DNA of 64,000 nucleotides from Siderastrea radians (lineage: Eukaryota; Cnidaria; Anthozoa; Scleractinia; Rhizangiidae). This document shows positions 27,584-61,758 of this stretch, piece after piece. Made by a program: the position numbers and the translations under genes. How positions within the stretch are numbered: position 1 is the stretch's first letter; every line of letters begins with the position of its first letter. A model generated the notes under the pieces. That model had not been told where the DNA came from. It was given only the letters and a program-made list of their open reading frames with translations, and did no database searches. Location: assembly GCA_964017195.1 (NCBI GenBank), contig OZ024896.1:32083807-32147806 (forward strand), given 5' to 3'.

Positions 27584-27644
27584 ATGAAGTTAGCGGCGAT
27601 CTTTCTGTGTGTAATTCTGGTTGCAGAATTGAACATTGCTCTAG
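27584..27644 (+). CDS. ROR: ROR-like exon 1: signal peptide
   Basis: The exon encodes MKLAAIFLCVILVAELNIAL plus a split glycine/alanine codon. This is a classic secretory signal: one lysine, a hydrophobic core and a small residue at the end. The donor is g|gtaagt, phase 1. The ATG is chosen because it starts the signal directly and the phase joins the next exon. Confidence 0.85.
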
Positions 27645-30600
27645 GTAAGTTAAATATAAGCGACGTGTGTTGTGGTGTTATGGCCTTTACAATTTGATGT
27701 GGTCATGTTGTCTGTTGACCGTGTTTACTTATAACAAGCAAGACGGTTTTAAGTGACAAAACATGAACGAGTAGGTGAATCACTAAAAATGCCCAAAGGA
27801 ATTGTCTTGTGTTTATGACAGCGAATTTTCGTTGGCTGCAGTTGTAGTTTTGAACGCGTTAAACCCATGGTAAACAGCAGTTATTTGCCTGCTCGCCTGT
27901 GAACCTATTTTACACTGTATGCGGGAATTACTTCAGTTTGCGAGATTAATTTAATCTTCGATGATGCTTGCTTATTTCTGTGATAAATGTTTGTTTCTAG
28001 GGCCTGCTTTTGCACAAATCCGCAATTTTTGCGTCTTCGATTTGTAAGACGTGCAATGTGTTCTTCATCTGTCTGCCATTAGCAATGGAATATCGCGATG
28101 TTTATAAGTGATTTACTAACATGTTCCTTTCAATTTTGACAGCCGCAGCGAGAAAATATTCAAGGAAGGGATCCCGATCAAGGAATAGAGGAAGATATTC
28201 TAAAGAGTGAGTGATCGATGCTTGTAGAATAAGGCTTTCTCAAGAGCATTGTTTTTCATGCAGAACTTATCCGGTTAATAACTCAATTCTCGGCTTGCTT
28301 TTATGAGGGAATTTGGCGTTGTAATTTAAAACCTTCACAGACAGCGTGGCCTTGGTAGATGACTTATATCTCACGGAGGGGCACTGATTAATTTCTGGTG
28401 ATCAAAGTGGAACAGGGTTTATTTGAAAGAAACATGTTTAGATGTCATTGTTCGTTCAACTTCTAAGCAATCTGCGCCTTGCTGTTTCGTTGTCAATGAA
28501 CTTACTTTCGTGTCAAACACGGCTGGATTTCATTCACGTTTCTTCATTTGTCAGATGTTTGACACAGTAGTCCTTTGTTTGTGAAATCGCCGCTTTTACA
28601 TGGGCGAAATCGCCTTCTTTGTTTCATTAACTGCTTTCTTATAACGCGGCTGAACACTTTTTTTCATTCAAATCGCATGCAAATGAGGTCAATATTCTCA
28701 TGCCGTCGTCTCGAATTTTGCAGAGGAGCTTCTGTTTGACGAGAGATGTCAAAAGACACGGTTCATGTTTATCTGTTTTTCGCGATATGGCTATATATAG
28801 CCGGACCACCATCAGTTTCAATTGTGCAAGGGAAACGCATATCGCTTCTTTCATCATTGCTTTGAGCGCCCTGTTCATTTCAAAGCTCGCAATTGACTCG
28901 AGTGCTAGTGTAGGTTTAATATTCGACACAATAGATAATTGTTGCTTTTTTGTTCTCCCTATTGTGTCTTACCGCCTTTCAAAAGCATTTAATAAACGGG
29001 AAAATTCTTGAAGCAATTTAACCTGGTCGCTGTCAAGGGCGATATGAGATTGGAATACACTTTTCTGTCAGGTTTTTAAAACCCAGTGTTCGTTGTTTTC
29101 AACCATTAGTGTCAAACTTGATCTGAAATCGACATGATGGTTGGCGCACTCCAGCTGACCAAACTTCAACCAATGTCTCGCAAATTTTCGACTTTCTCTG
29201 CACCGTTGCTGGGTCAATTCGCGGTAATTAACTGTTCCTTAGGAAAAATCTGTGAGGTACTTTGCAAAGGTGCCGCTTATAATGAAAAGTTCGTGTTTTG
29301 CGGCTTTGCGAAAGTTCAATATAAGCTTAATTGATTCACAAGCGAAGGTTTCCAATGTGTGGTTTTCATTTCCTTATTTATTCCTTTGCCGCCTTCGCGA
29401 AATAGTCACTCATTCTTACATTGGAAATACAATTCAGACATCTTACAAATACGAAAACACATGTTCACCGTGACACATTTGATCTTTAAAATGACACTTG
29501 AGCAAAGAAAATTTAATAGTGCCAAAATGCTAGTTCTTATTTTTAAAACAAGGATATCTTTTTTTGAATCAAATTTCGGCATCAAGAACTGCTGCTAGTA
29601 AAGTGAAATAAAATCGTGGTGAAAAGCTGTAAATAAAATTAAAATACTATTTACGTCTGTTAGGATAACAGGGGCTTGTTTGTTTTGACTCGAGGCTCTT
29701 TGAAATAGTTTTCAAGTTTTTGCGTTGCGTCTTAAAATTTTCAAAACTTTTTTGATGGGCGCTCATTATCCTTGACAATACTGAGATCCCCTACATAAAA
29801 GCCGAGTCGATTCATAGAGAGAGCATTGACTTATGTAAGCAAACAACTTGTGACCTCCTTGTATTTTACAAACCCAATGTAGTGTGCATGTTTTGGGACT
29901 GAAAGTTACAAATTCAGTATTCTCGAATGCAAGCAAATTTGGCGCGTTTTTGGTTGTTACTTTAATTTACCTCATATTTTTTCGTTCCAATACTGAAGGT
30001 TATATGATATCCTGCATTATGAATGCGCCACACAAAAAGTCCCAGCTATCTTCATCAGTTAAGATTAAATACTATGACATTTTTCGATCTTGAAAGATAT
30101 CGAAGATATATCTTGACATGAAATTTTGAATCAGTTCTACGGCAGTTTTTCATTTAATATTTATTCCTGAGGTATGCTAAGCGAATACCTTGTTTGGTTA
30201 ATTAAAAATATGCATTTACATGTTAAAGCTTAATGAGGTACTCCGATAAGCCAAACGCAGATGTCATTAGAAAAATATTGATGTCCAAACTTCCTGGTTT
30301 TAATGGTTTTTGTACATTTCGATGTTTTCATTCTCTTAAAAGTGTCACAGTTTCAGTGATAACTTGTTCTATCAGTTTTTGCATTGTACAAAAATCTTCA
30401 AAAACCTTCGTAAGTCTAATTAGCGAAGTAATTGCTATCTTATGTACACATCAGATACATTTTTGGTACGGTGGTTTTTATTCTTCTCCCTGCAATGCAA
30501 TTATAGTTTGTCTCGTGAGAAAATAGAAATTGGGAAACCAATGTCTTTTCCTGTTTCCGCTGTGGTCTGCTTCGTCAGTGTCGATGGTGAATAGAATTCA

Positions 30601-42200: not shown

Positions 42201-45200
42201 TCCTTATAGAGTTACGAGTAATTTGTGTTTGCTTTAGTTCTCGTTCGCTAGCAAAGCGCTGGTTTAAAAATCTCTTGCTACGAGATGAGCAATCAAACCA
42301 AAACCAAATGTCACATGTTACATGTTTTCTCGCGATTGGCATTGGTGAAATGTTTTCCCGCGCTTTACCCCAGTTGCATTCTTCTTCGCGCTGAGCACCG
42401 GTTACAGTTCTCGTGCGCATGGCGTCGGTTGCATTTTTTCCCGCGCTTGGCATCGGTTGCATTCCCGCGCTTGGCACCGGTTACGTGTTTTCGTGCGCTT
42501 GGCACTGGTTACATGTATTCCCGCGCTTGGCATCGGTTGCACGTGTTTCCGCGCTTGGCCCAAGTGACGTGTTTTCATGCGCTTGGCACTGATTACATGT
42601 CTTCCCGCGCTTGGCATCGGTTGCACGCTTTCCCGCGCTTGGCACCGGTAACGTGTTTTCCCGCGCTTGGCACTGGTTCCATGTCTTCCCGCGCTTGAAA
42701 TCGGTTTTGTGTTTTCCTGGCACTGGTTGCAAGTTTACCCGGTCTTGGCGCTCTTTGATTGTTTTCCTGCGCTTGACACCAGTGACATGAACTCCCCCTC
42801 CGCTTACCCCTTGACTTTGGTTAAGTGTAGCATCTGACACGTGACTCTTTTTTCGTTTCCAGTAAGCCGGTGTGTGAACCATACTCTGGTGGCCAGCTAT
42901 GTGAGCCTTACCTTAAAGGTCAGCGGGTTTATGTCAACCCGTCACGAGGGTCCCAGGCCCAGATCGGCAACCGTGTGGACATTCACTTCAGTACGCTGAA
43001 AAACTATGTATCTGGAGGATGCAAGGACTACGTTCTGCCAACTTTGTGTAATTACGCATTTCCACCTTGCGATCCGGCTTACACCACGCCCACCCCGCGG
43101 AAGTTCTGCCGTGATGATTGTCTGGTTTTGAAAAATGACGTCTGCAAAACGGAATTTTATTACGCCAGTAGGAATAAATTCGTTTCGCATCTTTTGCCAA
43201 ATTGCTCCAGTATGCCGACTTTGGGGGATCCTGGATATAAGAGATGCATCCGAGTTGTAACTCAAGGTGGGTTTTCCTGCAGCTAACAAGACATCAAAAA
43301 TTTAAGAAAATTTTATCTTGGGAAAAATTGAAAAAACGAAACGCACCCCAAAAAAGTAGTTTTCGGTTGCTTTTGTTTGAATGGTCGCACTCAACCACAG
43401 ACTCAAAGTAAGAAGCACCTTGAACATCATAATAAACAGTACCACAGGAAAGTACTGCTCAATAGTTTTCATTTCAATGGCCACACTCTAGGATTTCATC
43501 CACAGACTCAAAAGTTAAAACCACCATGAAATTATAACCAACAGTACCAGAGGAAAAAAACCGCTGAATAATATTCATTTAAAATTTCGAGGATTTCATC
43601 CACAAACGCAAAAGTTAGAACCATTGTGTACAGGAAATACAGCAAATAGACAGCGCCAGAGGCAAGTTCTGCACTACGGCTTTAGTTTGAATGTTTGCAC
43701 TTTAGGATTTCATCCACAGGCCCGTAAGTTATTGTCGCCTTGAAGAGCATAATAAACAGCACCACAGGAAAGTACAATTCGAAAGCCTTCATTTGTTACG
43801 TTAGAGCCATCGTGTATAGCCTAACAAACAGTACCAATGAAAAGTGCTGCTTAGTACTTTCATTCGAATGGTCACACTTTAGGACTTCATACACAGATTT
43901 AAAAGTTGTAGCTACATTGTACAATGTTGTAAAAAAAGTATCCCAGGAAAGAAGCTTGGTAGCTTTCAATGAATGGTCACTTTTCAGGGACTCCTCCTCA
44001 AAGTCTGAACACATTACACTCAATTCTATTGTTATTTCCCGTCCACAGGAAGCAAACCAGGATTCAAAGTCTTCTTGGAGGACATCACCATGTTTGAAAA
44101 AAAGCCTGTTATCTTCAAGTGTAGGCTGAGCGCGAAAAATTTAGCATTCAACGTCACGTGGTACAAAGACGGCGAGCCCATCACCGATGCTTATCGATCT
44201 TACAAGATAACCCCTTACCGCTGGGGTTCGCGGCTCAGGATTCGACGAGCGAAAGTGAAAGATGCTGGGATTTTTCAGTGTGTGGTAAAAGGTCCCGGAG
44301 GAACAGTAACTGCGCAGGCGCGGTTGAAGATTAATCGACTTGTCAACGCTCCACCCAGCACAAGTATGTTTCAACTTTTTAACCATTTAATCCCCAATGG
44401 TGACAGACAACTATTTCCTCCTTACAGTATCACTACACCATCAAACATACAGGTCACGAGAATGAAGAATGTCTCGATGTTTAAGCAAATTCTTCCAGCT
44501 AGAGCCACAAGAAATGTATGGAGAATAGTGGGGAGAACTCGCACGTTGATACTTGGACTTCGGTAGAGTCACGCTATCTCAAACCCGTCTATTTTGAACT
44601 GTAACTCTGGGCGCGTTCTTTTGGGACTATTCCGGAATTGGAATACTCGGAATAGACGGTATTTGTGTTCATTTGGGAGCTATTCCGTTTTCAGAATGAA
44701 CGGATATTCCGTTCATTCTGCTCCCGATAGCAGAATGAACAGAGTGAAAGGAATACGGTTTACTCGGAATAGCCAGAATACGCGTTCTTTTGGAAAATTT
44801 TTGGCGGGAAATCCTACGCGGCCCCAGACATAGTAGTAGTTCTCAGGTCACCTCCGCCGTGGGTATTCCGTTTTCAGAAGGAGCGTTCTTTTCGAAATCG
44901 GGAATTCCGTGTATTCTGTTATTCCTAAACCGAAATAAGAATAGCCATCATAGTCCCAAAACAATGCACCTTCTGTTTCTGTTTATTTAGTATAGACTAG
45001 ATCCTATTCTGTATAGTATTCAGTCTTCCTCCTTATCGAGAAAAATTTTGCAAGTTTTATTTTCTACCTTGTACACGAATTACTTTGGGTGCATTCTTTT
45101 GGGACTATTCTGGTTATTCTTATTCCGGTTTAGGAATAACAGAATACACGGAATTTCAATTTCGAAAAGAACGCCAATTCTGGAAACGGAATACCCTTGG

Positions 45201-48200
45201 CGGAGGTGACCTGAGCACCACTATTTCTGCACACGCGCGGGCGGCCGCGTAGGATTTCCCGCCAAAAATTTCCCAAAAGAACACGTATTCTGTCTATTCC
45301 GAGTAAACCGTATTCCTTTCATTCCTTTCATTCTGCTATCGGGAGCAGAATGAACGGAATGATATTCCGTTCATTCCGAAAACGGAATAGCTCCCAAAAG
45401 AACACAAATACCCTCTATTCCGAGTATTCCTATTCCGGAATAGTCCCAAAAGAACGCACCCTTTATCTCTTCTAAGTATTTGTTTTATTTTTTTTTCTAC
45501 GGTTAAATCAGGAGTACCCTCCCAAGGTAAGACGTTTTACACTATATTTACCTATAAAGAAGGGGGGGGAGGGGGCAGGGGAGGTTAAACTTCCCGCTTT
45601 CCGTACCCTTTAATCCCGGTTCCCGCCCTATTTAGTTGCGCTTTCTCGATTGCGAAATATTCCGCAGTGTTGCGTAAATTGCCCCTGTTTCTCCCGCTTC
45701 CCGGCATCTTGGGAATCCCGTTCCCGCCCCCTCTACTCCCATCCCCCCCCCGTACACCTTCTGCTCCCTTTTTTCCCGGGCTCCCGCCCCCCCCCGTTTC
45801 CCTTCACTATTATAAACATACACTAAGCATGATGCATTGCTTATCACTGTTTCGCCATTTTAGCCTGTGTGCAGCCACGGTGTCGTTACACAGGATATCA
45901 CTATGTTGGTTCGTTGACGGCATTAGCCCTGGCTCGTCAATGCTGTTTGATGTTAGTAATGACAGCGGTTTAACGTATTTTTAGCACTACTTTAAAAAAG
46001 ACACATTCCAATAAAATGAAACCCAAAATGATGGTTCGGTTTTGTTCAAAATTACTTTATTAATTTGCTACTTATGGCTAGGATGGAAATGAATTGTAGA
46101 GTAACCCTTTAAGACTTGATATAAAAATGCATATTCTCTTTACCGTTCTCCATACATTTCTTATGGAACTAGTAATGAGAACTTATCTAAATATCAAGAC
46201 ATCTTGGTGGTCTCGTTCTTTATTCTCATCACTTGAATGTTTGAAAAGGTAGTGATAATGTAAAGAAAACTTCATTTCGTCACTGTTAGGGCTTAAAGGG
46301 TTAAAAATAATTTGGCCATTTCTTACAAGTTCTTCCCTCGAGTCTTGAAAAAAAATCGCTAAAAAGCTGTCATGGTTTGTTCTCTCTTACACTGCTAGCA
46401 GTCCCTTTCTGGATAGTCGAGAGGGCGCGCGAAATAGCCGAGAGCGCGAGCTATCAACAGCGCGGCGAGATTCGGCTTTTTCGCTAGGCTATTTCGCGCG
46501 CCCTCTCGACTATCCAGAAAGGGACTACTAGCAGTCTATTCCTCCCTTTGAGAAAATCACTTGAAATCTGTAGAATTCCATTTGCCTTTCTTGTACACTA
46601 GAGGAGCTTAGTTTAAAGTTCAGTACAATTTTGACTCTCATCACTGAGAAAAACCAGATTCTGAAGTGATCTAAACTTAAGCTTACAACTGCTTGTTTCG
46701 CGAACGCTTGCTAGATCTATGAATCTGTTTCATCAACTGCATCGGTTCTAACCACCAGGCGTCACTTCTAAGCGTAGGGCTGCAACGATACACCGATGCA
46801 TCGGTGAACCACGATATTTTTTCCAACGATACGAATATCGATATTTAAATAAGATATCGTGATATGACGGTACAATAAAATATGCCACATCAACAAATTT
46901 AGGAAATCACTGCCTGGAATATTCCTTACCCAAGCTTTACATTTTAGCCCTTGCAAGGCGATTTGATGTTGTGTTTTTACTGTGTTAAATTTATTATTAT
47001 GAAAAGAAATAAATTAGTGTAAGTTGTTGGTAACTAGTTTTGTCGCGCACAGTAATGTATCGTATCGTGGGAAAATGTATCGTTGCAGCCCTATCTAAGC
47101 ATTTGTTTTATTTTTTCCACAGTTAAATCTGAGGAACTAACGGAAGGTAATTAATTTCATTCATTGTCAAAATAAATTAAAAATAAATTTGATATTGTTT
47201 ATGCAACGCTTATCGCTGATAATTTAGTTCTCGGAAGTCGCCATTTTCCTCTGATTTCCTCACTCAAGAGAGATACATAATTGTTCCACATGAAATCTTG
47301 TGGTGTAAGAACATGTGACCTTCAAGGCGTGCAAAATACAGAGGGTACTCGCTTGTTTTTAACATTTTCTTTTGTCTCTCGTTGCAGATCCCCCTTTAAC
47401 CTTTGGAACTGAAGGGTAAGTCTTGGTTTTCTTTCTATGAATTTAGACGTTCCTTTTTGCTCAGACGACTACAAACAACGTTTCTTAGGGGCGATTTAGA
47501 CGGTACGATTTTTGCTTACGGCTGTCGTATGCGATTTTTTCAGCGCGCGCTGCTCGCGTCAGGATCGTAAACAACTCGACTGCCGTAGGGTTTTAAAACA
47601 TGTTTCAAAATCCTACGACATTTTTCGTGTTGTGTGCAACTCTCGTAAAAATGTTGTACGCCACAGTGTTTTGAGTTTTGTATTTTTAATTGTTTGTTCT
47701 TGTTTTCAGGACCCTCTCTCCGCTTGGCTTATGTGAACTTTACCGCGGCCAAGCATGCGCAGAGTTTCTTCGTAATAAAAGCATTTGGGTTCATTATAGA
47801 GGACATCAGCAAGTTATTGAAGATGAACTGGGGAATGCACTCAATGTTATAACGCGAGCCTTTCAAATGTCTGAAAGGTATATTACTTTACGAATGCTGT
47901 GTATTTAGAGTTGCATCAGAAGTAATTCGCGTTTATCATGGTTTTGCCTTACCACTCTCTCTGATTGGTTAAAAAACCTCGCGTCACTTTCTCGACCAAT
48001 CAGAAGTAAAACCAATTCCAATTGTGTCTTGCTCGCGCGCGTTTTCCCGCGCTGAGCGTTGGTTGCACTTGTTTGCTTCGAGTTCTGATTGGTTCATTTA
48101 ATTGACTGCGGCTGCTGTGATTGGCCAGAGTAAATACTTTGGTTTTGGTTTTACGACACTCATTTGAAAACGGCTCTTACCGTAGTCAAAATGTTTTTTT

Positions 48201-51200
48201 TTTCTCTGGAGAATCCCTTCTTTTTTTGAAGTGAACACACACATTTAACTGCATCACGCAGTCACGCAGTCTCAGAGTAAATAAATGAAAATAGAATGGT
48301 GTGTGGAGAGAGGAAACTCAGAAAAAAAATTCAGAGTTAACACCCTCTTTTTCCCTATCCTCTCATTTAACTTTCTATTTTGATTTTCAGTTGCACCAAA
48401 TATGGTATACGTGCAATGTGTTTTCACATTTTTCCCACGTGTGACGACCAAGGCCGTGATTCCAAGCCTCGCCTGTGTCGCGAGGATTGCTTCGCTCTCT
48501 ACGAAGACGTCTGTTTAACTGAGCTACAGATCGCAGGCATGAACCCAATGTTTAGACATATACTGCCAAACTGCTCTTCCCTTCCTACACGCGATGACAA
48601 AGATCATTCCTATTGTACCTCGCTTGGTATTCCAGGTAAGTTCCGTGCAGTTTTCAATAACTCAGCTTTTAGTCTTGAAATTAGAGCTCGTTCTATGTTC
48701 TACAAAGTCTCTATTGTTTAGAGAATGGGGCTTAATAGAGGGGATCATTTTTAACCCTTTAAGCCCCAATATCAGCATGCATTTTCTCCTAACTGTTCTT
48801 CATGTATTTCTTATGGTACTAGTTGGGAGACTTTGCATAAAAATCAAGACATTTCCCCTTTGGTGATCATTTCCTGTATTCTCGAGGGTTGTCCAATACT
48901 CCGACAAATTTATGCATGGCATTGTATTGTATTCACTTCACATAACAATACTGTAAAAAAGCATAACAAAAAAGAATGAAGCAAAACAATAAGAAATTTA
49001 ACAATGCTTTGCATAAATTTGTCGGAGTATTGGACAAGTATGGTATTCTCATGACCTGTATGTTTGATCAAGTAGTGGTATTTTAGGGAAAAATTAGATG
49101 CTTGTCGCTATTCGGGCTTTAAGGGTTAAAGTGTGTGTGAGAGTGTTGTGAAGAGAGCAAACGCCGTGTTGAATTTTTCCTGTCCATCCATACGGCCTTG
49201 AAAAGGAAATCAGAGAATTATAGAGGGGGGCTTAATCCGAGTAATAAATTTTGGCTAAATCTCGAGCTAACTTTTACAATGTAAATTTTGATGGTCGCCT
49301 CAAGCTGAGACCAGACTCGGAACAAAATAAAGAAAAGCGTTTTTTGTTGTCGTCGTAGTGTACTTTTGATGCAAAACGAAACTAAATTGTATTAATTTCG
49401 AAGAAAGCACTTTTTTCACGTATAATTAATCTTGCAGAATTTCTTGGGTAAAATATATTGAAAGTCTATACCAGTGGTTTTGATCAAGAAAGTCGCAGTG
49501 GAACCCCGATAACGAATCCCTATATAACGAAGACCCCGGTATAGCGAACCATATTCTTCAGGCCATTGTTGGAAAAGGACCCCCGATATAACGAACCCCC
49601 GAAGTAACAAACACATTTTACCAGTCGCTTGGCGCTTCTTTATGCCGGGTTCCGCTGTAAAAGACTTTTCATTCTAGATAGCGTTTCAGTTTAAATTAAG
49701 AAGGCAAAACTTGCGGCTCGTCTTATCTACATGTCTCTTGCATGTGTTCCCTCATGCCTAGCGTGTTTTATGATTGTACAGTAAGTTGCTGTACCTTAAT
49801 CATTTGTCAAGAAAACACATAACCATATAGTACTGTTGAAAATTTTGCTAGTACTCAGGAACTGCACATATTTTCTGCCGAACATTTCATAAAGATCTCA
49901 GATTAATGTTGCCTCTCTTTATCCTTTAGGGTTGAATACACCTATGCCTACAGGAAGCTTAGTTTTTCCTCGAGCTGAAGTTCAAGGTTAGTGTTGATTT
50001 ACTTCCACTGCATACTGTAAAGCTTTGTCAGACCTTCACGAACTCCTGCCTTTACCTACCCTCATCCATGTTAATCCTTTTACTCCCAAGAGTGCCCAAG
50101 TCAAAATTCAAGACAAATCCCAAATTTCATTTTGTAAAATACTTAAATACAAATAGTACCACGTGAAAGTACTGCTGACGAGGTTTCATTTGAATGGTCA
50201 CACCATAGGATTTCATCCACAGGCTGAAAAGATAGAACCATCTGAAATGTCTCCGGAACTGACTCTGGGATTGAAAGGGTTAATCCTACACATCAGATGA
50301 GGTCCCTTCTCCTCCTTTGGTTCTACCTGGGATCTTTAATCCTATGTGCCTGCACATTTCTATTTCGTGTTTATCGACAAATTCAAGACATCTTGGACTC
50401 CAGGCGTGCGTTTCTCGAAAGCCCCGATACGGGTCGATTTCGAGCACAATAAATCACATTATCTTGAAAGCAAAGATGTTTTCAAGCATGAAACTTTGGT
50501 ACAAGTTCGACGTTTCTTCATTGTTAAGACACGTTTAAACAACAGCTTTTTTGTAGAGTGAGTGGTTCATATTTTTGCAAATGACTCATCGGGCCCGAAA
50601 AGTCTTCGGGACTTACGTAGCCTGCGTAGCAAGCGTTTCCGTAGGTCGAGGAATTTTTCGCTTTTTGGCGGCGCGAAAATTGGGACGAGCGCAACACTGA
50701 TGGAAGGAGCGGGGAGGGGAGGGGAGGCGTTTCCTTTCCTCCCTCCCCCTCCCCTTTCTCGCACTCTTTTGCACTCGCCCCAATTTTCGCCCGTTTAAAA
50801 GGCGAAAAATGCTCCAAACCTGCGAAAAGCCCTATACTACGGAAACGCTTGCTACGCAGGCTAGGACTTACAAGAAATACGTTTTTGAATTTCCTTTTAA
50901 CAGCTTTCTTACTTTTCATTTAACTGCAGATCACACTTGTTACAACAATACTGGCGAAACATACGCTGGTCGAGTAAACGTCAGCAAATCTGGCCGCCCC
51001 TGCCGTCCGTGGCCCACCATGGACCCCCCGGGTCACAACTTCTGCAGAAACCTGGGTGGCCTGGGTAAGATGCCGTGGTGTCATGCTGGGTCGGAGAATG
51101 AGAAGGAGGACTGTGACATAAAGAAGTGCACGGCGATTGGTATGTCAACATCATGTTACTATTAACGGAATGTTAATCTGTTTGAAATAGTACGTAACTT

Positions 51201-53349
51201 TGCTTTGCACTGAAAGTTTCATTTTGCGGTTCAGCCAGACTGACTTGATGTTGGACAAACCTTTGGAATACTGTTGATCATTGTGCATAAAGGATGAAAG
51301 TCGTCCAGTGATGACGACTTTCATCTCGGTGACTGGTCATTTACCTGTAAGTGTCTACATGATTCGGAGCTGAAATGTGTTCGCCCCAGGATGATTTAAA
51401 CCCGGTCTTCAGCACCGGGATGAAAAATTCATGTAAACACGATGCCTTTTCTCGTCCCGAGGTGAGACGACCTTTCTCTGAGCCTCACTACACTTTGCCG
51501 TCGCGATTTCATTTTCGCCCCGGGATGAAACTGTTTACCTTTCATCCCGGGGTGAACGAATAGGAATTCCATCCCGGGATGAACTCACTCCGGGATGAAA
51601 CTCATCCCAGCTCTCATGTAAACGCGGCGTTAGTTGGCCTTGATTAATTGTGTTCACGCTCTGTTTCAGGCCCCTTGGATAACACAGTCAACAAACAGCC
51701 GCAAAAAAGTGTCCGCCCTGTCGGTCGAACAATCTACGTCATTTCCGTTATCATGGCTGTCCTTATTGTGGCCTTCCTGTCAATCATTGTGTACCTCAAA
51801 GTACAGCACAGTAAGAGCGCACTTCCGCAAAGTGACCAAGCCTCGTCTGGTTCCATCTCTAAAAGCACCCAGAGTACACTGCAGCAGCCTAGCTTTGATT
51901 TGAAACAAAGCATCAGTGAAATCAAGTCTTGCGTGTTTAATCAGGTCAGTGTGTTTTTTACTGTACCTTGCTGTTATATCTTGTCCTGTGCGTTGTCTTT
52001 TTCCCAAACTGTGAAAACAATTGTTAATGCTTAACCCCCGAAGACTAGCTTTACCACAAGACACTAGCGTTTATTTGTATGGTCACACCATTTAAAGGAT
52101 TTCTTTCACAGCCTCAAAAAGTTTGTACAGCAAAATATATAGCACCACAAGAAGGTCCTGCTCAGTAGCTTTCATTTAAATGGCCGCAGTTTAGGATTCC
52201 ATTCACAGGCGTTGCGGCGTAACAAACAGCACAACAGAAACGTTCCCGCCCAGTATCTTCCATTTGAATGGCACACGTAATATTTCATCCACAGACGCAA
52301 AAGTTAGAACCATCTTGTATGGCTTAACAAACACAAACTGCAAAACAGAACGTAATGCTTAGTTGCTTTCATTTGGGTAATTGAATAGCCCCACCGTAAT
52401 GACGCACTTACCTCATTCATAAGATGACTTTGCTTTTACAAAATTTTGATGTTATGTGTGTTATTTGTTTCTTTAACAGAACCACGCGGACGTGAGCCAG
52501 GGCAAAGTGAAGTTTCTTGAGGCGCTGGGTGAAGGTATTTTCACGAAAGTATGCAGAGGGGCGCTGATTAAACTCGACTCCGAGATGTCAGACGTGGAAA
52601 TTGCCATCAAACGGCTCAAAAACGACGTCCCTCCTGCTGCGATAGAAAACTTTAGAAGGGAGACTTCGATCCTCGCCAGTTTGCAGGACATCAATATCTT
52701 AAGTCTTATTGGCGTGTCAGCCGGGGAGGAGCCTCGTTTCATGGTGTTTGAGTACTACACTGATGTTGACCTGTATCGATTCTTAGTGGATAACGCGTCC
52801 AAGTTGTCCGGGTTGATCCCGTGTGATATCTCTGAATATGACATTTTATTGGACTTCTCGTTGCAAATCGCCTCTGGAATGGACTTCCTTGTGGAACACA
52901 ACTTCGTGCATCGCGATCTAGCAGCCCGAAACTGTTACGTTACCGAGGGCAACATCGTGAAAATCTCAAATCTTGGGATCGGGAGCTATAAGTACCCTGG
53001 GGACTACTCATGGGTGCATGGCAGCGCTCTACTTCCGGTGCGATGGATGGCACCGGAAGCGCTCAACACATTGCAGTTTTTCCACCGGACCGATGTCTGG
53101 TCGTACGGGGTATTACTGTGGGAACTTTATACCCACGGGTCCCAGCCATACGCCGGATTCACCAACCAAGAAGCGATTGAACAGATACGGAATCTGGAGG
53201 TACTGTCTTGCCCCGATAATTGTCCCGCCCGGATGTATGGATTAATGCGGGAATGTTGGGAAGAAATCCCCTCGGATAGACCCCCGTTCTCCGAGATTTG
53301 CTCCCGGTTGCGTGAATGGGCTGGTGACTCTATCGCGGAGAGCCATTAG
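27584..53349 (+). CDS. ROR: ROR-family receptor tyrosine (pseudo)kinase with two Frizzled CRDs, whole gene
   Basis: Twelve exons join in phase: 27584-27644, 28143-28206, 42863-43266, 44049-44363, 47123-47146, 47388-47415, 47710-47877, 48391-48635, 49930-49986, 50930-51139, 51670-51944 and 52480-53349 (2,721 nt, 906 residues). All introns are GT-AG. Approximate residues: signal peptide 1-21, basic linker 22-41, CRD1 42-176, Ig 177-281, linker 282-298, CRD2 299-436, linker 437-455, kringle 456-525, TM 546-570, kinase 618-906. ROR receptors bind Wnts through the CRD and act in non-canonical Wnt signalling at the plasma membrane. Kringle plus CRD plus Ig plus this kinase type is diagnostic of ROR. 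The oddities are an extra CRD before the Ig domain, Asn in place of the DLG Asp, and no C-terminal tail. Micro-exon choice is the least certain part. Confidence 0.9.
28143..28206 (+). CDS. ROR: ROR-like exon 2: basic linker
   Basis: The acceptor is ttttgacag and the donor is gtgagt. It encodes a short Arg/Lys/Ser-rich segment (AARKYSRKGSRSRNRGRYSK) right after the signal peptide. Entry phase 1 and exit phase 2 fit the neighbours exactly. The basic stretch could bind heparan sulfate or be a proprotein convertase target; that is inference. Confidence 0.75.
30940..31500. repeat. Degenerate tandem repeat, about 120-150 bp
   Basis: The motif 'tttttagaataacaa..aagtaa..ccaaaagtact' recurs near 31,150, 31,275 and 31,428, with 'gtgaaaagactt' blocks between. 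Unit length is variable. Confidence 0.65.
31920..32310 (-). repeat. 106-bp repeat family, antisense block
   Basis: About three to four degenerate copies with ggatttcatccacag and caaaagttagaac cores lie on the minus strand relative to the array monomer. Confidence 0.8.
32380..32745. repeat. Direct repeat, two copies of about 205 bp
   Basis: The copies begin near 32,380 and 32,586. Both contain aactgaactgggcacgcaa, gaccaaaatc(c/t)cgcaaacg and gtagaaatttgttct. A third diverged relative lies at 31,650-31,755. Confidence 0.75.
33800..34275 (-). repeat. 106-bp repeat family, antisense tandem block
   Basis: About four copies; actgctcagtag recurs at 33,855 and 33,961, exactly 106 bp apart. Confidence 0.9.
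35340..35870 (-). repeat. 106-bp repeat family, antisense tandem block
   Basis: About five copies, the central ones well preserved (catccacagactcaaaagtt, taccaccttgtacagcat-like cores). Confidence 0.9.
36313..36667. mobile_element. Inverted-repeat MITE
   Basis: Ends of about 50 bp (left aaagtgatgctacgatcaaa; right, inverted, ttttgatcggagtaccactt) include the shared block cttcggatttcgaaact. The interior has no coding content. Confidence 0.8.
39195..39246. repeat. (TAA)n microsatellite
   Basis: About 17 uninterrupted trinucleotides. It causes an artificial polyisoleucine in the open frame that spans it. Confidence 0.98.
39337..39480. mobile_element. Short inverted-repeat MITE
   Basis: The left end is ataaaggttgctttgg and the right end ccaaagtaacctttat. 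The arms are packed with 'gcattggg/gcaattgg' variants. Confidence 0.7.
40244..41572. mobile_element. Mutator-like element, non-autonomous (about 1.3 kb)
   Basis: The termini aacctgcgatcaggctc and, inverted, ggcctgatcgcaggtta are flanked by the 10-bp direct repeat ctggggggct at 40,234-40,243 and 41,573-41,582. A second inverted pair (aggctctattttcgtttcgc and its complement) lies inside the left end at 40,254-40,321. No transposase motif is visible; the 126-codon plus frame at 41,148-41,528 is unconvincing. TIRs are short for a MULE, so the superfamily is provisional. Confidence 0.75.
41690..41840. mobile_element. TTAA-type MITE fragment
   Basis: The blocks actagttgggagaatttgat, ggtgatcatttcctatattc and cttggggcttcaaggggtaa match the right two-thirds of the element at 48,755-49,125. 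Confidence 0.7.
42355..42790. repeat. 28-bp GC-rich minisatellite
   Basis: The unit is roughly 'cgcgcttggcaccggttacgtgttttcc'-like; starts at 42,466, 42,494, 42,522 and 42,550 are exactly 28 bp apart, and there are about 15 copies with substitutions. It ends about 70 bp before the CRD1 acceptor. A related short stretch occurs at 48,025-48,070. Confidence 0.92.
42863..43266 (+). CDS. ROR: ROR-like exon 3: Frizzled cysteine-rich domain 1
   Basis: A single 404-nt exon encodes a whole CRD with ten cysteines in Frizzled order, including the motifs LCNYAFPPC, FCRDDC and LLPNCSSMP, which resemble those of the single CRD in vertebrate RORs. Acceptor ttttcgtttccag, donor gtgggt, phases 2 in and 1 out. 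In known RORs the CRD lies after the Ig domain, so this N-terminal CRD is extra. It lacks the internal intron that splits CRD2. Confidence 0.9.
43370..43995 (-). repeat. 106-bp repeat family, antisense block in intron 3
   Basis: Five to six degenerate copies fill most of the 782-bp intron between CRD1 and the Ig exon (ggatttcatccacag recurs near 43,490, 43,590 and 43,705). Confidence 0.85.
44049..44363 (+). CDS. ROR: ROR-like exon 4: immunoglobulin domain
   Basis: The exon encodes an I-set type Ig: first cysteine in IFKCRLS, tryptophan in VTWYKDG, the ROR-like GSRLRIRRAKVKDAG block, and second cysteine in FQCVVKG. It has a possible N-glycosylation site (NVT). Acceptor tcccgtccacag, donor a|gtatgt, phase 1 on both sides. 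In known RORs this is the most N-terminal domain; here it lies between two CRDs. Confidence 0.9.
44383..44570. mobile_element. TTAA-type MITE remnant next to the exon 4 donor
   Basis: It begins 19 bp after the splice donor with ttaaccatttaatccccaat and contains caaacatacaggtcacgaga and aagaaatgtatggagaatag, matching the family copy at 4,978. The right end is decayed. Confidence 0.65.
44607..44972 (+). mobile_element. MITE family C, copy in + orientation
   Basis: It starts gggcgcgttcttttgggact and ends with the inverse agtcccaaaacaatgcac. The body is rich in 'attccg' motifs. It is paired head-to-head with the copy at 45,088-45,461. Confidence 0.85.
45088..45461 (-). mobile_element. MITE family C, copy in - orientation
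   Basis: This is the reverse complement of the neighbouring element at 44,607-44,972 along its length (for example tcattctgctatcgggagca and aaaatttcccaaaagaacac), ending atagtcccaaaagaacgcac. Confidence 0.85.
45512..45526 (+). CDS. ROR: Possible 15-nt alternative micro-exon
   Basis: Between ttaaatcag and gtaaga lie 15 bases (gagtaccctcccaag) that would add five residues without changing phase 1. The surrounding 60 bp is a diverged duplicate of the micro-exon region at 47,095-47,150, in which the original acceptor AG has become CG. Whether it is still spliced is unknown. Confidence 0.3.
45540..45810. repeat. Pyrimidine (C)-rich low-complexity tract
   Basis: A G-run (ggggggg at about 45,562) is followed by tcccgcttcccg-type C-rich repeats with runs of 9-10 cytosines. 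The long frame across it is compositional. Confidence 0.85.
46106..46300. mobile_element. TTAA-type MITE (piggyBac-like ends)
   Basis: The element runs from ccctttaagacttg to ggcttaaaggg, with TTAA on the right and the related TAAC on the left. It shares tctccatacatttcttatgg with family members. Confidence 0.75.
46401..46527. repeat. Perfect 40-bp inverted repeat (fold-back element)
   Basis: The arms 46,401-46,440 and 46,488-46,527 are exact reverse complements (agtccctttctggatagtcg at the outer end) around a 47-bp GC-rich loop. Flanking ctagcag-like sequence on both sides may be a target duplication. Confidence 0.93.
46775..47093. mobile_element. hAT-type MITE upstream of a micro-exon acceptor
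   Basis: The termini tagggctgcaacgatac and, inverted, gtatcgttgcagcccta are the common hAT (Charlie-like) ends. They are flanked by an 8-bp target duplication, tctaagcg/tctaagca, at 46,767-46,774 and 47,094-47,101. The element is 319 bp and non-coding. Its right end is 29 bp from the exon at 47,123. Confidence 0.9.
47123..47146 (+). CDS. ROR: ROR-like micro-exon 5 (24 nt)
   Basis: Between ttttttccacag and gtaatt lie 24 bases encoding (I/V)KSEELTE, phase 1 in and out. It is supported by strong splice sites, a preserved frame and a duplicated relative at about 45,500. Because its length is a multiple of three, it could be skipped or alternative. Confidence 0.6.
47388..47415 (+). CDS. ROR: ROR-like micro-exon 6 (28 nt)
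   Basis: Acceptor ctctcgttgcag, donor g|gtaagt. It encodes DPPLTFGTEG and changes phase from 1 to 2, which the CRD2 exon requires. That makes it obligatory in this model. Confidence 0.7.
47710..47877 (+). CDS. ROR: ROR-like exon 7: Frizzled CRD 2, first half
   Basis: Acceptor tcttgttttcag, donor gtatat, phase 2 to 2. It encodes GLCELYRGQACAEFL, the equivalent of the vertebrate ROR CRD start with its first two cysteines, then an amphipathic helix region ending RAFQMSE. An NKS sequon is present. Confidence 0.88.
48391..48635 (+). CDS. ROR: ROR-like exon 8: Frizzled CRD 2, second half
   Basis: Acceptor tttgattttcag, donor gtaagt, phase 2 to 1. It carries the remaining eight cysteines, with MCFHIFPTC, LCREDC and ILPNCSSLP, and ends SLGIPG. 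By its place before the kringle this is the orthologous ROR CRD; it is about as close to CRD1 as expected of an ancient duplicate. Confidence 0.9.
48755..49125. mobile_element. TTAA-type MITE (piggyBac-like ends) in intron 8
   Basis: The element runs from ccctttaagccccaat to gggctttaaggg, with perfect TTAA on both sides (48,751-48,754 and 49,126-49,129). It is interrupted by a smaller nested MITE. Confidence 0.9.
48884..49042. mobile_element. Nested 159-bp MITE with 8-bp target duplication
   Basis: A 27-bp near-perfect TIR (ttgtccaatactccgacaaa, inverted at the right end) is flanked by gtattctc at 48,876-48,883 and 49,043-49,050. An 8-bp duplication suits the hAT superfamily. It splits the older TTAA MITE around it. 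Confidence 0.9.
49930..49986 (+). CDS. ROR: ROR-like exon 9: linker
   Basis: Acceptor ttatcctttag, donor gttagt, phase 1 to 1. It encodes a short Pro/Gly-containing linker (LNTPMPTGSLVFPRAEVQ) joining CRD2 to the kringle. A 57-nt cassette with symmetrical phase could be alternative. Confidence 0.7.
50075..50279. mobile_element. TTAA MITE containing a 106-bp monomer, copy 2
   Basis: TTAA flanks (50,071-50,074 and 50,280-50,283) enclose ends ccttttactcccaagagtgc and gactctgggattgaaaggg. The interior tttcatttgaatggtcacac and aggatttcatccacaggctg are the antisense 106-bp monomer. In reverse it aligns end to end with 22,239-22,450. Confidence 0.9.
50617..50863. mobile_element. Palindromic MITE with 8-bp target duplication
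   Basis: The termini gtagcctgcgtagcaagcgt and, inverted, acgcttgctacgcaggcta are flanked by ggacttac at 50,609-50,616 and 50,864-50,871. The ends resemble those of the Mutator-like element at 2,067 (agcctgcg). It lies 66 bp upstream of the kringle exon. Confidence 0.9.
50930..51139 (+). CDS. ROR: ROR-like exon 10: kringle domain
   Basis: Acceptor tttaactgcag, donor g|gtatgt, phase 1 to 1. It encodes HTCYNNTGETYAGRVNVSKS, then GRPCRPW, HNFCRN, MPWCHAG, EDCDIKKC: six cysteines in kringle order. The middle of the domain, between CRPW and NFCRN, is about 15-20 residues shorter than in vertebrate ROR kringles. An N-glycosylation sequon (NNT) is present. Confidence 0.9.
51310..51632. repeat. Dispersed element with 'catcccgggatgaa' palindromes
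   Basis: Self-complementary ccgggatgaa/ttcatcccgg blocks recur about seven times, ending tctcatgtaaacgcggcg. Related fragments occur at 24,630-24,900. Confidence 0.65.
51670..51944 (+). CDS. ROR: ROR-like exon 11: juxtamembrane and transmembrane segment
   Basis: Acceptor ctctgtttcag, donor gtcagt, phase 1 to 0. It encodes an extracellular stem, a 24-residue hydrophobic helix (VISVIMAVLIVAFLSIIVYL) preceded by Arg and followed by a Lys-containing stop-transfer, then a Ser/Gln-rich cytoplasmic juxtamembrane stretch of about 45 residues. Confidence 0.9.
52050..52380 (-). repeat. 106-bp repeat family, antisense block in intron 11
   Basis: About three degenerate copies (tcagtagctttcatttaaat, atttcatccacagacgcaaa) directly precede the kinase exon. 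Confidence 0.8.
52480..53349 (+). CDS. ROR: ROR-like exon 12: tyrosine kinase domain, DLG changed to NLG
   Basis: A single exon from a phase-0 acceptor (tttctttaacag) to TAG encodes 289 residues. Motifs: LGEGIFTKV glycine loop with the third Gly replaced by Thr; IAIKRL lysine (residue 661); helix C Glu in RRETSIL (678); HRDLAARNC (761-769); SNLG where RORs have SDLG (Asn 781, codon AAT at 52,969-52,971); YPGDYSWV where vertebrate RORs have YxxDYY; LLPVRWMAPEA and PYAGFTNQEAIE, both ROR-like. The protein stops 12 residues after the kinase fold, lacking the Ser/Thr/Pro-rich tail. Loss of the DLG aspartate predicts weak or no phosphotransfer. Confidence 0.95.
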   Translation, partial: NHADVSQGKVKFLEALGEGIFTKVCRGALIKLDSEMSDVEIAIKRLKNDVPPAAIENFRRETSILASLQDINILSLIGVSAGEEPRFMVFEYYTDVDLYRFLVDNASKLSGLIPCDISEYDILLDFSLQIASGMDFLVEHNFVHRDLAARNCYVTEGNIVKISNLGIGSYKYPGDYSWVHGSALLPVRWMAPEALNTLQFFHRTDVWSYGVLLWELYTHGSQPYAGFTNQEAIEQIRNLEVLSCPDNCPARMYGLMRECWEEIPSDRPPFSEICSRLREWAGDSIAESH

Positions 53350-56690: not shown

Positions 56691-57041
56691 CTAGAAAATA
56701 TTCCAAAGAAGTGGTCCAAAACAGAACCCTTGGGGCCATCCCTTTCTAATATTTTGCCATCTGCTTGTGATGGTGCCGAGTTTCACTCTTCCTTGGCGCT
56801 CTTCAAAGTAAGATCTTAATAGAGTTAGTGAGTCTTCAGAGAAGTAATAAGCTTTTAGTTTTCGGATCATTAGCGCTGGAAGGAGCGAATCAAATGCCTT
56901 GCTGGTGTCAGTCGAGATAATTCCCACTATTTGTCCATGATCCAAAGCTGATTTCCAGTCTTGAATTAGCTTCAGCAACTCCGTTTCACAACTGTGACTT
57001 TTTCTGTAGGCTGACATGTTGGTAGAAAGATGAGGATCCAT
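56691..57041 (-). pseudogene. Reverse transcriptase fragment
   Basis: A 116-codon open piece of the LINE holds RT motif A (DTSKAFDSL) and motif B-like PQGFCFGPLLWNIF. The usual GVPQGS has become GWPQGF. The YADD catalytic motif follows in another frame about 50 bp on. Confidence 0.85.
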
Positions 57042-57110
57042 CTTCTCTGCTATTTGGTGACTGAGTCTCTGTTAAAGACTTTATTAACTGTATTGAGAAC
57101 TGCTATTAGT

Positions 57111-57707
57111 CTATAGTTCTTTTTCTCTGTTTCTTTCATCTCTTTTCTGAACAGGAATCCATTCTCCTCTTTTCCGACTGTTTAGGTATTCCCCCGAGTT
57201 TATAGCCAAGTTGAAGATGTTGGTTAGCGAGGGGGCTACGTCTTCTGCAGCCAGTTTTAATATTTTCGGTGGTATCATGTCCCAACCCATCGATTTAGTG
57301 GGATTCAGACTTTCCAGTGCCTTCGTATTTTCTGTCTTGGTGATGTTGGAAAAGGAGAATTGCTCAGTGTTTGTGTAGTTATTGGTGATGTTAATGACAC
57401 TAGAGTGGTTGCTGAAATCGTTTTCTGTGAGTAAAATGGTGTTACTCCCTCCGATGTCGTCAGCCGAGGCAGAAAAATATTTTGATAGCTCCTCCGCAAC
57501 GACGTTCTGATCTTTTTCTATTTCACCGTTGATTTCTATTTTGATGATGTCTCTTTCAGCCGATCCTTTCTTACTTCCCAAGAAAGGTTTGAACGACTTA
57601 AAAAAGTCGCTCGTCTTAGAGTTCAGTTCCTGGGTTCTTTTTTCCCAGAACGCCTTTATTGCTATGCGTCGTTCCTTGGTCGCTTCATTTCTGGTTTTTC
57701 TCTTCAA
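57111..57707 (-). pseudogene. LINE pre-RT region fragment
   Basis: A 198-codon open piece lies immediately upstream of the RT fragment in the same element. The conserved stretch around residues 140-160 (GWDMIPPKILKLAAEDVAPS) is the RT lead-in of coral-type LINEs. Confidence 0.8.
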
Positions 57708-57779
57708 TTCCCAGTTTTCGGGGTTCTCTCCTTTGCAAACTTTTTAACAGCTTTTCTTTTTAGCAATGTTTACTTAAGA

Positions 57780-60901: not shown

Positions 60902-61758
60902 CTATGCAGGCGTCACAGCTGGAGTCGAAAGCCGAAAAACAAACTGCCTCATCTTTTTCTGTCGCCAACAATAAATTAGTGGATTGGCAAGAGAATTTAA
61001 CATGACAAACGTGCGGACCCATGGACGAGTCACGTGACTGTTCAAGTTATCCTTAAGTACAAACACGAACAAAAAGATAACAGCCATGGGAAGATAACAA
61101 AACATAACAGCACCGACTACAAGTACAGTTGTTTTGAGCGCTTTGTTCTCTTTAGCGAATCTTTGGACTTCTTCTTGGGGAAGCTGTTGCGTTTTGATCA
61201 TCTCTCGGTGCTGAAGTGTTTCACGTTATAAAATCGCATAAGCAGGCGCGATGAACAGGACACACGAGAAAAGGACAAGAGCTACCAACAGGTTTAACAT
61301 TGGTCTTATAGCGCTCTTCCCAACGATCAGTCCTACTATAACTTGAGAAATAGAAAAGACCCAAAACGAGATCACTGCAACCTTGATGTTTCGTGTTATG
61401 ACGATGTCAGGATAGTGCACTGTAAATCTGATCGCTATGAGCCTCTCGCAAGTAACTAACATCAGGTGAAGGGATGAACACACAGATACGACGCGTAAAG
61501 AAGACCTGTAAAAATCGTCAACTGTTTCGTCGTGGGTTGGGCCAAGTAACTGGAATGTTTTTAACAGAATAAACGTTGGCTGTAGTACAAGACCCGTTAA
61601 AGCGTCGGAAACCGTGCCAAACAGGCCAACAAGATGTTGGTTTTGCTCTGGAGAGCTGGTTTGCGTTTTACGGCCATTATCACCAGCACGTTAAGAAGAA
61701 CTGTAAAAGGACAAGTGATATTGTTTATGACAATAGTTACGAATAACTTACCGTCCAT
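60902..61758 (-). pseudogene. Rhodopsin-family GPCR pseudogene
   Basis: From a minus-strand ATG at 61,758 the order is TM1 (NNITCPFTVLLNVLVIMAVK), TM2 lead-in NILLAC, then in another frame SDALTGLVLQPTF, TM3 ending in the DRY-equivalent CERLIAIRF, TM4, TM5, a third loop with basic residues, TM6 with VMFCYLPMA, and TM7 with NSLANPLIYCWR (NPxxY). Two lesions break it: a one-base frameshift near 61,620 between TM1 and TM2, and an in-frame TAA at about 61,223 after TM5 (PAYAIL*). The rest is well preserved, so the loss looks recent. Cnidarian genomes have large intronless GPCR families of this kind. The ligand cannot be predicted. Confidence 0.88.

Follow-up and report, generated by a model that had tools for sequence, protein, structure and literature searches.

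A hexacoral ROR-type receptor with two CRDs flanking the Ig domain in the coral Siderastrea radians

Results

Gene structure and encoded domain order

The window, a stretch of 64,000 nucleotides from Siderastrea radians (GCA_964017195.1, contig OZ024896.1, positions 32,083,807 to 32,147,806), contains a complete receptor gene on the forward strand (27,584-53,349) comprising 13 exons, one of them doubtful. The exons join in phase all the way between the signal peptide and the stop codon with no stop inside the translation, every intron is bordered by GT-AG, and the encoded order is signal peptide, basic N-terminus, CRD1, Ig, CRD2, kringle, transmembrane (TM) helix and kinase. Exon 1 (27,584-27,644, phase 0-1), whose encoded N-terminus aligns with those of orthologs, carries the start codon and the signal peptide MKLAAIFLCVILVAELNIAL, while exon 2 (28,143-28,206, phase 1-2) encodes the basic N-terminal stretch of the mature protein, ARKYSRKGSRSRNRGRYSK. 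These are followed by exon 3 (42,863-43,266, phase 2-1) for CRD1, a Fz-type domain with ten cysteines, and exon 4 (44,049-44,363, phase 1-1) for an I-set immunoglobulin (Ig) domain, assigned by Pfam (I-set, 1.2e-11) and an Ig tree. The linker between Ig and CRD2 is encoded by the micro-exons 5 (47,123-47,146, phase 1-1) and 6 (47,388-47,415, phase 1-2), and CRD2 is divided between exon 7 (47,710-47,877, phase 2-2) for its first and exon 8 (48,391-48,635, phase 2-1) for its second part. Exon 8a (57 nt, 49,930-49,986, phase 1-1) supplies the CRD2-kringle linker GLNTPMPTGSLVFPRAEVQ, and exons 9 (50,930-51,139, phase 1-1), 10 (51,670-51,944, phase 1-0) and 11 (52,480-53,349) encode the kringle, the TM helix with the juxtamembrane segment, and the kinase with a short C-tail and the stop codon, respectively.

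The core exons of the initial annotation were borne out, but that model lacked exon 8a and the doubtful exon 4a. Exon 8a was the best candidate when compared with the linkers of seven coral-like orthologs (score 42, next 16). Exon 4a (15 nt, 45,512-45,526) looks like a decayed duplicate of the exon at 47,123, with GG where the AG acceptor stands in the 47,123-47,146 copy, and is frame-neutral whether used or skipped. A six-frame scan of the window turned up no additional exons for CRD, Ig or kringle domains; outside the known exons, the top-scoring among 2,166 ORFs reached E=0.14. The in-house CRD, Ig and kringle HMMs were seeded with domains from the window and from some relatives and served for counts and extra copies, not as independent proof.

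Extracellular domains and membrane part

The proposal that two ten-cysteine CRDs, in exon 3 and exons 7-8, surround the Ig exon was confirmed by Pfam and by the translation, as was their in-phase joining to kringle, TM helix and kinase, with all intron phases in agreement. Each CRD alone matched Pfam Fz, CRD1 with E=1.6e-12 and CRD2 (exons 7-8 joined) with E=4.5e-12. All ten cysteines of each domain were invariant in the 10 aligned hexacoral rows which, together with ten full-length orthologous matches, excludes a chance origin of the CRDs. Conservation among corals was about equal for the two domains (59% identity for CRD1, 62% for CRD2), while CRD1 and CRD2 inside one hexacoral protein shared only 26-36% identity. 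The predicted fold of CRD1 was nearest to the ROR2 CRD; the five AF2 models reached pLDDT values of 86.7, 80.2, 78.7, 64.5 and 63.5 from an input of 11 rows, of which the P0023 row failed to align to CRD1. By sequence and predicted fold, CRD1 is thus a ROR-type CRD. Borrowing of CRD1 from a Frizzled was considered and rejected, since the sequence search returned no Frizzled match up to E=10 and the structural Z of Frizzled was lower. The sixth row of the CRD1 search was an unrelated phosphofructokinase (E=1.1).

The kringle exceeded the Pfam cut-off when the whole protein was searched (37.2 bits vs 34.3, 3.8e-9), with no single stretch alone below 0.001, and its six cysteines were all invariant in 10 rows. 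Assuming that the mature protein starts after residue 21, the N-terminus carried a net charge of +3 to +10 in 11/11 hexacoral rows. Mean identity across nine coral-like rows was 90% for the TM and 87% for the juxtamembrane segment, and the TM helix was placed at 547-575 in the model of the Orbicella ortholog. The full-length Orbicella AF2 model had a pLDDT of 72.8 and a pTM of 0.38, a level at which the relative placement of domains is not readable from it.

Kinase domain

The kinase domain was recognized by Pfam PK_Tyr (1.2e-75) and, among solved kinases, scored 234 bits against ROR1, 233 against ROR2, 194 against MuSK and 184 against TrkB; the nominal top row, 9p9u (EGFR, 236), adds up two copies that score 116.5 bits apiece. 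Foldseek with the Orbicella ortholog placed ROR1 or ROR2 at all of ranks 1-6. At least one catalytic residue of VAIK/HRD/DFG is lost, as in receptor tyrosine pseudokinases: DFG reads NLG, with the metal-binding aspartate replaced by Asn, in 16/16 hexacoral rows, because of which the hexacoral kinase is probably inactive, a pseudokinase. On the other hand, hexacorals retain the VAIK lysine (16/16 rows), the alpha-C Glu (14/16, with Asp in the remaining two) and the HRD aspartate, so residual kinase activity may remain. The HRD arginine was present in 14/16 rows, two corals having HCD, and the activation loop reads YPxDYSW in hexacorals vs YxxDYY in bilaterians.

Orthologs and transcript support

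Ten coral-like proteins, three of them named as corals, aligned with the full length (100%) of the gene at 57-72% identity. Seven of these ten end-to-end orthologs come only from contigs of 2.6-5.0 kb, which are too short for the unspliced gene, and their sequences therefore most likely represent spliced RNA, a support that comes from orthologs and rests on contig size. The presence of CRD1 and Ig in one chain in all ten upheld the view that exon 3 is spliced to the Ig exon and does not belong to another gene. The CRD-Ig-CRD layout is common to corals and sea anemones, including Actinia and Nematostella. The domain order, for which the initial annotation knew of no described ROR, is accordingly not unique to this genome, although no paper describing it was found in the open-licence PMC literature. 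A third protein search returned four already known cnidarian rows followed by proteins whose similarity was confined to Ig, kinase or kringle domains. In a different protein search, no octocoral or medusozoan name stood among the 120 of 2,742 matches listed, which does not prove that these groups lack the gene, as some rows carry no species name. A kringle-less coral form of the receptor also exists.

Comparison with known receptors

The receptor combines a ROR-type kinase with a Fz-type CRD followed by kringle and TM helix (CRD2-linker-kringle-TM), and its I-set domain precedes CRD2 as the Ig precedes CRD-kringle in RORs, although some members lack it. It departs from the family in having two CRDs instead of one. 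We do not treat a single CRD as defining, because the extracellular part of RORs is described as quite variable across species (PMC2772990) and three two-CRD RORs in our set come from outside hexacorals. ROR1 and ROR2 are built from modules of the same types, both extracellular and in the membrane, and share the Ig-CRD2-kringle-TM-kinase order, while the hexacoral receptor bears a second CRD before the Ig. It has almost no C-tail after the kinase, in contrast to the long tail of bilaterian RORs such as P0042, and carries NLG and HRD (HCD in two corals) where human RORs have DLG and HKD. MuSK has three Ig domains followed by one CRD; the hexacoral receptor has one Ig, no further Ig was found in the window by the six-frame scan, and its kinase scored lower against MuSK than against ROR1 (194 vs 234).

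Nematostella vectensis ROR2 (P0021) is the same gene by sequence, with 61% identity to the coral-like P0001 over kringle-TM-kinase, and shares the CRD1-Ig-CRD2 order and the NLG kinase with corals, but has three CRDs at the CRD2 position and thus four in total. RORs with more than one CRD were also found in the acorn worm Ptychodera (P0025), the sea urchin Diadema (P0054) and the wasp Fopius (P0037). These differ in the arrangement of their domains (with an Ig at the N-terminus, an additional kringle, or both) and in having DFG kinases, and module trees hint at separate duplications.

Origin of the second CRD

CRD1 and CRD2 each formed a clade with corals and anemones, with support of 98/99 and 99/97 in one tree and 100/99 each in the other. 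The separate clades place the duplication before the coral/anemone split, and the domain sequences indicate that CRD1 was already distinct from CRD2 by then. The initial interpretation, a CRD duplication or exon shuffle creating a receptor that may bind two Wnt-type ligands or dimerise through one CRD, was partly substantiated. A hexacoral CRD1+CRD2 clade was unsupported (26/0). AU tests on the deep origin of CRD1 gave p values of 0.42-0.51, and a grouping of coral and acorn-worm CRD1 was not rejected (p=0.51). The first tree comprised 44 rows, with Ciona and lgn119 as long-branched neighbours of the hexacoral CRDs; the second omitted the long-branched Diadema CRD1 as well as the tunicate, lgn119 and Fopius rows, and neither included the near-duplicate or partial rows P0006, P0007, P0010, P0011, P0022 and P0023. 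Among 113 scanned proteins having a CRD or kringle, 90 were counted as one-CRD proteins. Insect CRDs split by an insertion mimic two in the raw HMM count and most were merged, while P0107 and P0108, really N- and C-parts of one CRD, are still counted as two-CRD proteins.

Discussion

The receptor is a hexacoral ROR variant that is filed in databases under plain ROR names, and a search of the open-licence PMC literature found no description of a two-CRD cnidarian ROR. The CRD duplication proposed in the initial annotation stands as a shared event older than the coral/anemone split and is not peculiar to this genome.

By analogy with human ROR2, the hexacoral ROR most likely acts as a kinase-independent Wnt/Frizzled co-receptor; human RORs are described as pseudokinase Wnt co-receptors (PMC13259870). 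We consider it reasonably probable that the whole is explained by a ROR with an early-split CRD1 that would work as a kinase-independent Wnt5/planar-polarity co-receptor, with CRD1 adding a second contact. CRD2 would pack against the kringle, like its counterpart in human ROR2, and do the canonical job of boosting Frizzled, while CRD1, held out on the Ig, would supply the second contact. With two CRDs, a single receptor could engage a pair of Wnt or Frizzled partners or draw one Frizzled close to another, and we infer that the tandem CRDs raise receptor valency. The basic N-terminus may anchor the receptor to heparan sulphate, and signalling would run through Frizzled and the strongly conserved surfaces of the TM, juxtamembrane and pseudokinase regions instead of phosphotransfer. 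In human ROR2, the ectodomain is a monomer whose CRD has no lipid groove (PMC11219042), and a second CRD therefore does not necessarily imply a second Wnt; by contrast, a 2026 review states that ROR1 binds Wnt5a via a hydrophobic pocket (PMC13259870). Given the low identity between CRD1 and CRD2, CRD1 may also have changed partner. In mouse cells, the CRD of ROR2 suffices by itself and bivalent Frizzled engagement activates the pathway (PMC11219042), and Nematostella ROR2 and Wnt5a share gastrodermal expression according to PMC12549020, which cites a supplement.

Several other readings were weighed against this co-receptor model. CRD2-kringle might constitute the whole Wnt/Frizzled module, leaving CRD1 with a structural, adhesive or, with the basic N-terminus, heparan-sulphate-binding role and no Wnt contact. 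This would fit the divergence of the two CRDs, the basic stretch that precedes CRD1 in all 11 rows and the lack of an adjoining kringle, which packs on the CRD in human ROR2 (PMC11219042), but the retention of all ten cysteines, a conservation similar to that of CRD2 and a predicted fold nearest to the ROR2 CRD make it rather unlikely. It is more doubtful still that the kinase is active despite NLG and the protein a conventional signalling RTK whose ectodomain is merely extended, since the uniform Asn in place of the DFG aspartate, HCD in two corals and the altered activation loop weigh against the conserved VAIK lysine, alpha-C Glu and HRD arginine.

With regard to history, the extra CRD could be a relic of a duplication before the cnidarian/bilaterian split that was lost in most bilaterians, and not a hexacoral invention. 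Two CRDs around an Ig are also seen in the acorn worm (CRD-Kr-Ig-CRD-Kr) and the sea urchin (Ig-CRD-Ig-CRD-Kr), and both the pairing of coral with acorn-worm CRD1, which AU tests do not reject, and the unsupported hexacoral CRD1+CRD2 clade point the same way. We nevertheless hold such a relic to be improbable by a fair measure, as both Ig domains of the sea urchin cluster with each other (94/90) and the two acorn-worm kringles fall in one five-row group (80/81), each hinting at a separate later duplication, and as one-CRD proteins predominate in the scan. The suspicion of a gene-model artefact, with exon 3 part of another gene, could draw on the 14.7 kb intron between exons 2 and 3 and on the old partial Nematostella model P0023, which joins CRD1 directly to the kringle. 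In ten orthologs and two anemone models, CRD1 and the Ig lie on a single chain in unchanged order, the exon phases (2-1 and 1-1) match precisely, and fusion or artefact was rejected on the ortholog proteins from short contigs, so that hardly any likelihood attaches to it.

Taking the co-receptor model further, we tentatively envisage the hexacoral ROR as a multivalent, kinase-dead Frizzled/Wnt clusterer, in which the tandem CRDs would stand in for a pairing driven by ligand, on which bilaterian RORs may depend, and exon modules with phase 1 at both ends could allow the number and type of contacts to be adjusted by splicing (compare the kringle-less form). The ectodomains of RORs have been remodelled on more than one occasion through duplication of CRDs and other modules, which is hidden by database names such as ROR1-like and ROR2. 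The finding bears on the way in which RORs influence Frizzled when their kinase does not function: in corals and anemones, nature has provided receptors that carry two CRDs or four and whose kinase is disabled in a different manner, so that the roles of valency and kinase independence can be tested in them.

Gene model and splicing

The ROR-type receptor gene comprises exons at 27584-27644, 28143-28206, 42863-43266 (exon 3, encoding the ten-cysteine Fz-type domain CRD1), 44049-44363 (exon 4, Ig), 47123-47146 (exon 5), 47388-47415, 47710-47877 and 48391-48635 (exons 6-8, the latter two encoding CRD2), 49930-49986 (linker exon 8a), 50930-51139 (exon 9, kringle), 51670-51944 and 52480-53349, as well as a doubtful 15-nt exon at 45512-45526. 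All introns were GT-AG with phases consistent throughout, and the exon coordinates of the initial annotation proved correct. The 57-nt linker exon was added to that model; when phase-1 AG..GT candidates of 24-90 nt were scored with the linkers of seven coral-like orthologs as reference, it reached 42 versus 16 for the next-best candidate. The joined exons translated into 911 residues (906 without the doubtful exon), in which Pfam identified the Fz domain twice and the I-set Ig, kringle and tyrosine kinase domains once each, bearing out the earlier claim that two CRDs, Ig, kringle and kinase are joined in phase. The kringle exceeded its Pfam cut-off only by the whole-protein score (37.2 versus 34.3 bits); in the proteins from Orbicella, Acropora and Nematostella it matched as a single stretch.

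A search with this protein returned eleven coral-like proteins, ten of which covered 100% of the query, with identities of 57-72%. Three of these ten, from Oculina patagonica, Orbicella faveolata and an Acropora, carried the database names ROR or inactive ROR1-like. P0001, P0002, P0003, P0006, P0007, P0009 and P0010 came solely from a source with longest contigs of 2,576-4,961 bases (label 'lgn', presumably Logan assemblies) and, because these are far shorter than the 25.8-kb gene, most likely represent spliced transcripts. By sequence, all seven were taken as corals, since they are so close and the four of them included in CRD trees grouped among named corals.

Phase 1 was found at both ends of the exons encoding the Ig and the kringle, of linker exons 5 and 8a, of the CRD2 block (exons 6-8) and of exons 2+3, with CRD1 encoded by one exon and CRD2 by two. 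A symmetrical module of this kind keeps the frame intact whether it is duplicated or skipped, which fits both the CRD number in Nematostella and a kringle-less form. The latter, Acropora-like P0010, lacked exactly the kringle and kept both CRDs and the Ig, as skipping of the phase 1-1 exon allows. A micro-exon and its polypyrimidine tract were duplicated (45470-45530 and 47093-47150); the AG acceptor of the downstream copy is GG in the upstream one, which is caught in decay or re-use.

A MITE-like foldback element (44609-45461; four arm pairs of 65-118 nt, 88-95% complementary) within the intron 3' of the Ig exon was accompanied by a second MITE-like hairpin (46388-46538; 55-nt arms, 95%). A GC-rich 28/84-nt tandem repeat (42317-42706; 13.8 copies of 28 nt) stopped 156 bases upstream of the CRD1 exon. 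On the minus strand, a reverse-transcriptase fragment in two stretches, 56694-57071 (RVT_1, E=7.8e-10) and 57114-57743 (without match in the Pfam search), is perhaps a broken LINE-like element. Also on the minus strand, a rhodopsin-type GPCR coding region (60902-61690) consisted of two open stretches in the same frame with one intervening stop codon, the second matching 7tm_1 (E=7.9e-9) and the first falling under its cut-off; it is either broken or intron-containing.

Distribution of multi-CRD receptors

A wider search yielded two further proteins from Nematostella (P0021, P0023) and one each from Actinostola (P0022) and Actinia tenebrosa (P0024). Nematostella ROR2 (P0021) had four Fz stretches by Pfam in the order CRD1-Ig-CRD-CRD-CRD-kringle-TM-kinase, Actinia showed the CRD-Ig-CRD layout with the kringle missing from its gene model, and the older partial P0023 joined its sole CRD, CRD1, to the kringle. 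Among 129 scanned proteins (128 search matches plus the Siderastrea protein), 113 had a CRD or kringle. At least two CRDs were present in 13 hexacoral rows and, outside hexacorals, in three: Fopius arisanus P0037 (CRD-Kr-CRD-Kr), Ptychodera flava P0025 (CRD-Kr-Ig-CRD-Kr) and Diadema setosum P0054 (Ig-CRD-Ig-CRD-Kr). Three more hexacoral rows, P0011, P0022 and P0023, were partial, with one CRD or part of one. Many insect CRDs in the scan were one CRD split by an insert.

A 2009 paper describes the extracellular part of ROR as quite variable and Drosophila ROR as having an additional Cys-rich region (PMC2772990). The hexacoral proteins are filed under plain ROR names, and the open-licence literature searched yielded no account of this CRD-Ig-CRD layout for cnidarians.

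Kinase domain and proposed function

Against solved kinases, the Siderastrea domain scored highest with ROR1 (234 bits) and ROR2 (233), followed by MuSK (194) and TrkB (184); an EGFR construct held the nominal top rank with a score that adds up two copies at 116.5 bits each. Foldseek with the predicted Orbicella model placed ROR1/ROR2 at ranks 1-6. DFG was changed to NLG in 16/16 hexacoral rows, with HRD changed to HCD as well in two corals, Oculina and Orbicella. The motif was readable in 120 of 129 rows, 97 of them with DFG (paired with HRD in 96 and with HKD in one) and 23 with NLG, namely the 16 hexacoral rows and seven tunicate RORs (P0012, P0059, P0061, P0086, P0115, P0121 and P0125), in which loss of the aspartate was apparently a separate change. 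None of the 16 hexacoral rows had lost the VAIK lysine, and 14 of them retained the alpha-C Glu, which is replaced by Asp in P0009 and P0011. In the activation loop, DYS took the place of the bilaterian DYY. Across nine coral-like rows, the nine-residue C-tail was most conserved (98%), followed by TM (90%), juxtamembrane segment (87%), kinase (83%), Ig (66%), kringle (63%), CRD2 (62%) and CRD1 (59%).

The architecture of the coral receptor, its conservation and the absence of the DFG aspartate were shown by sequence. In the Nematostella primary polyp, ROR2 and Wnt5a are both reported to be gastrodermal (PMC12549020). In this protein, CRD1 may have acquired another partner, together with the basic N-terminus. 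Alternatively, and most likely, we infer that it serves in corals as a Wnt/Frizzled co-receptor acting independently of its kinase, and the two CRDs would lend this receptor higher valency.
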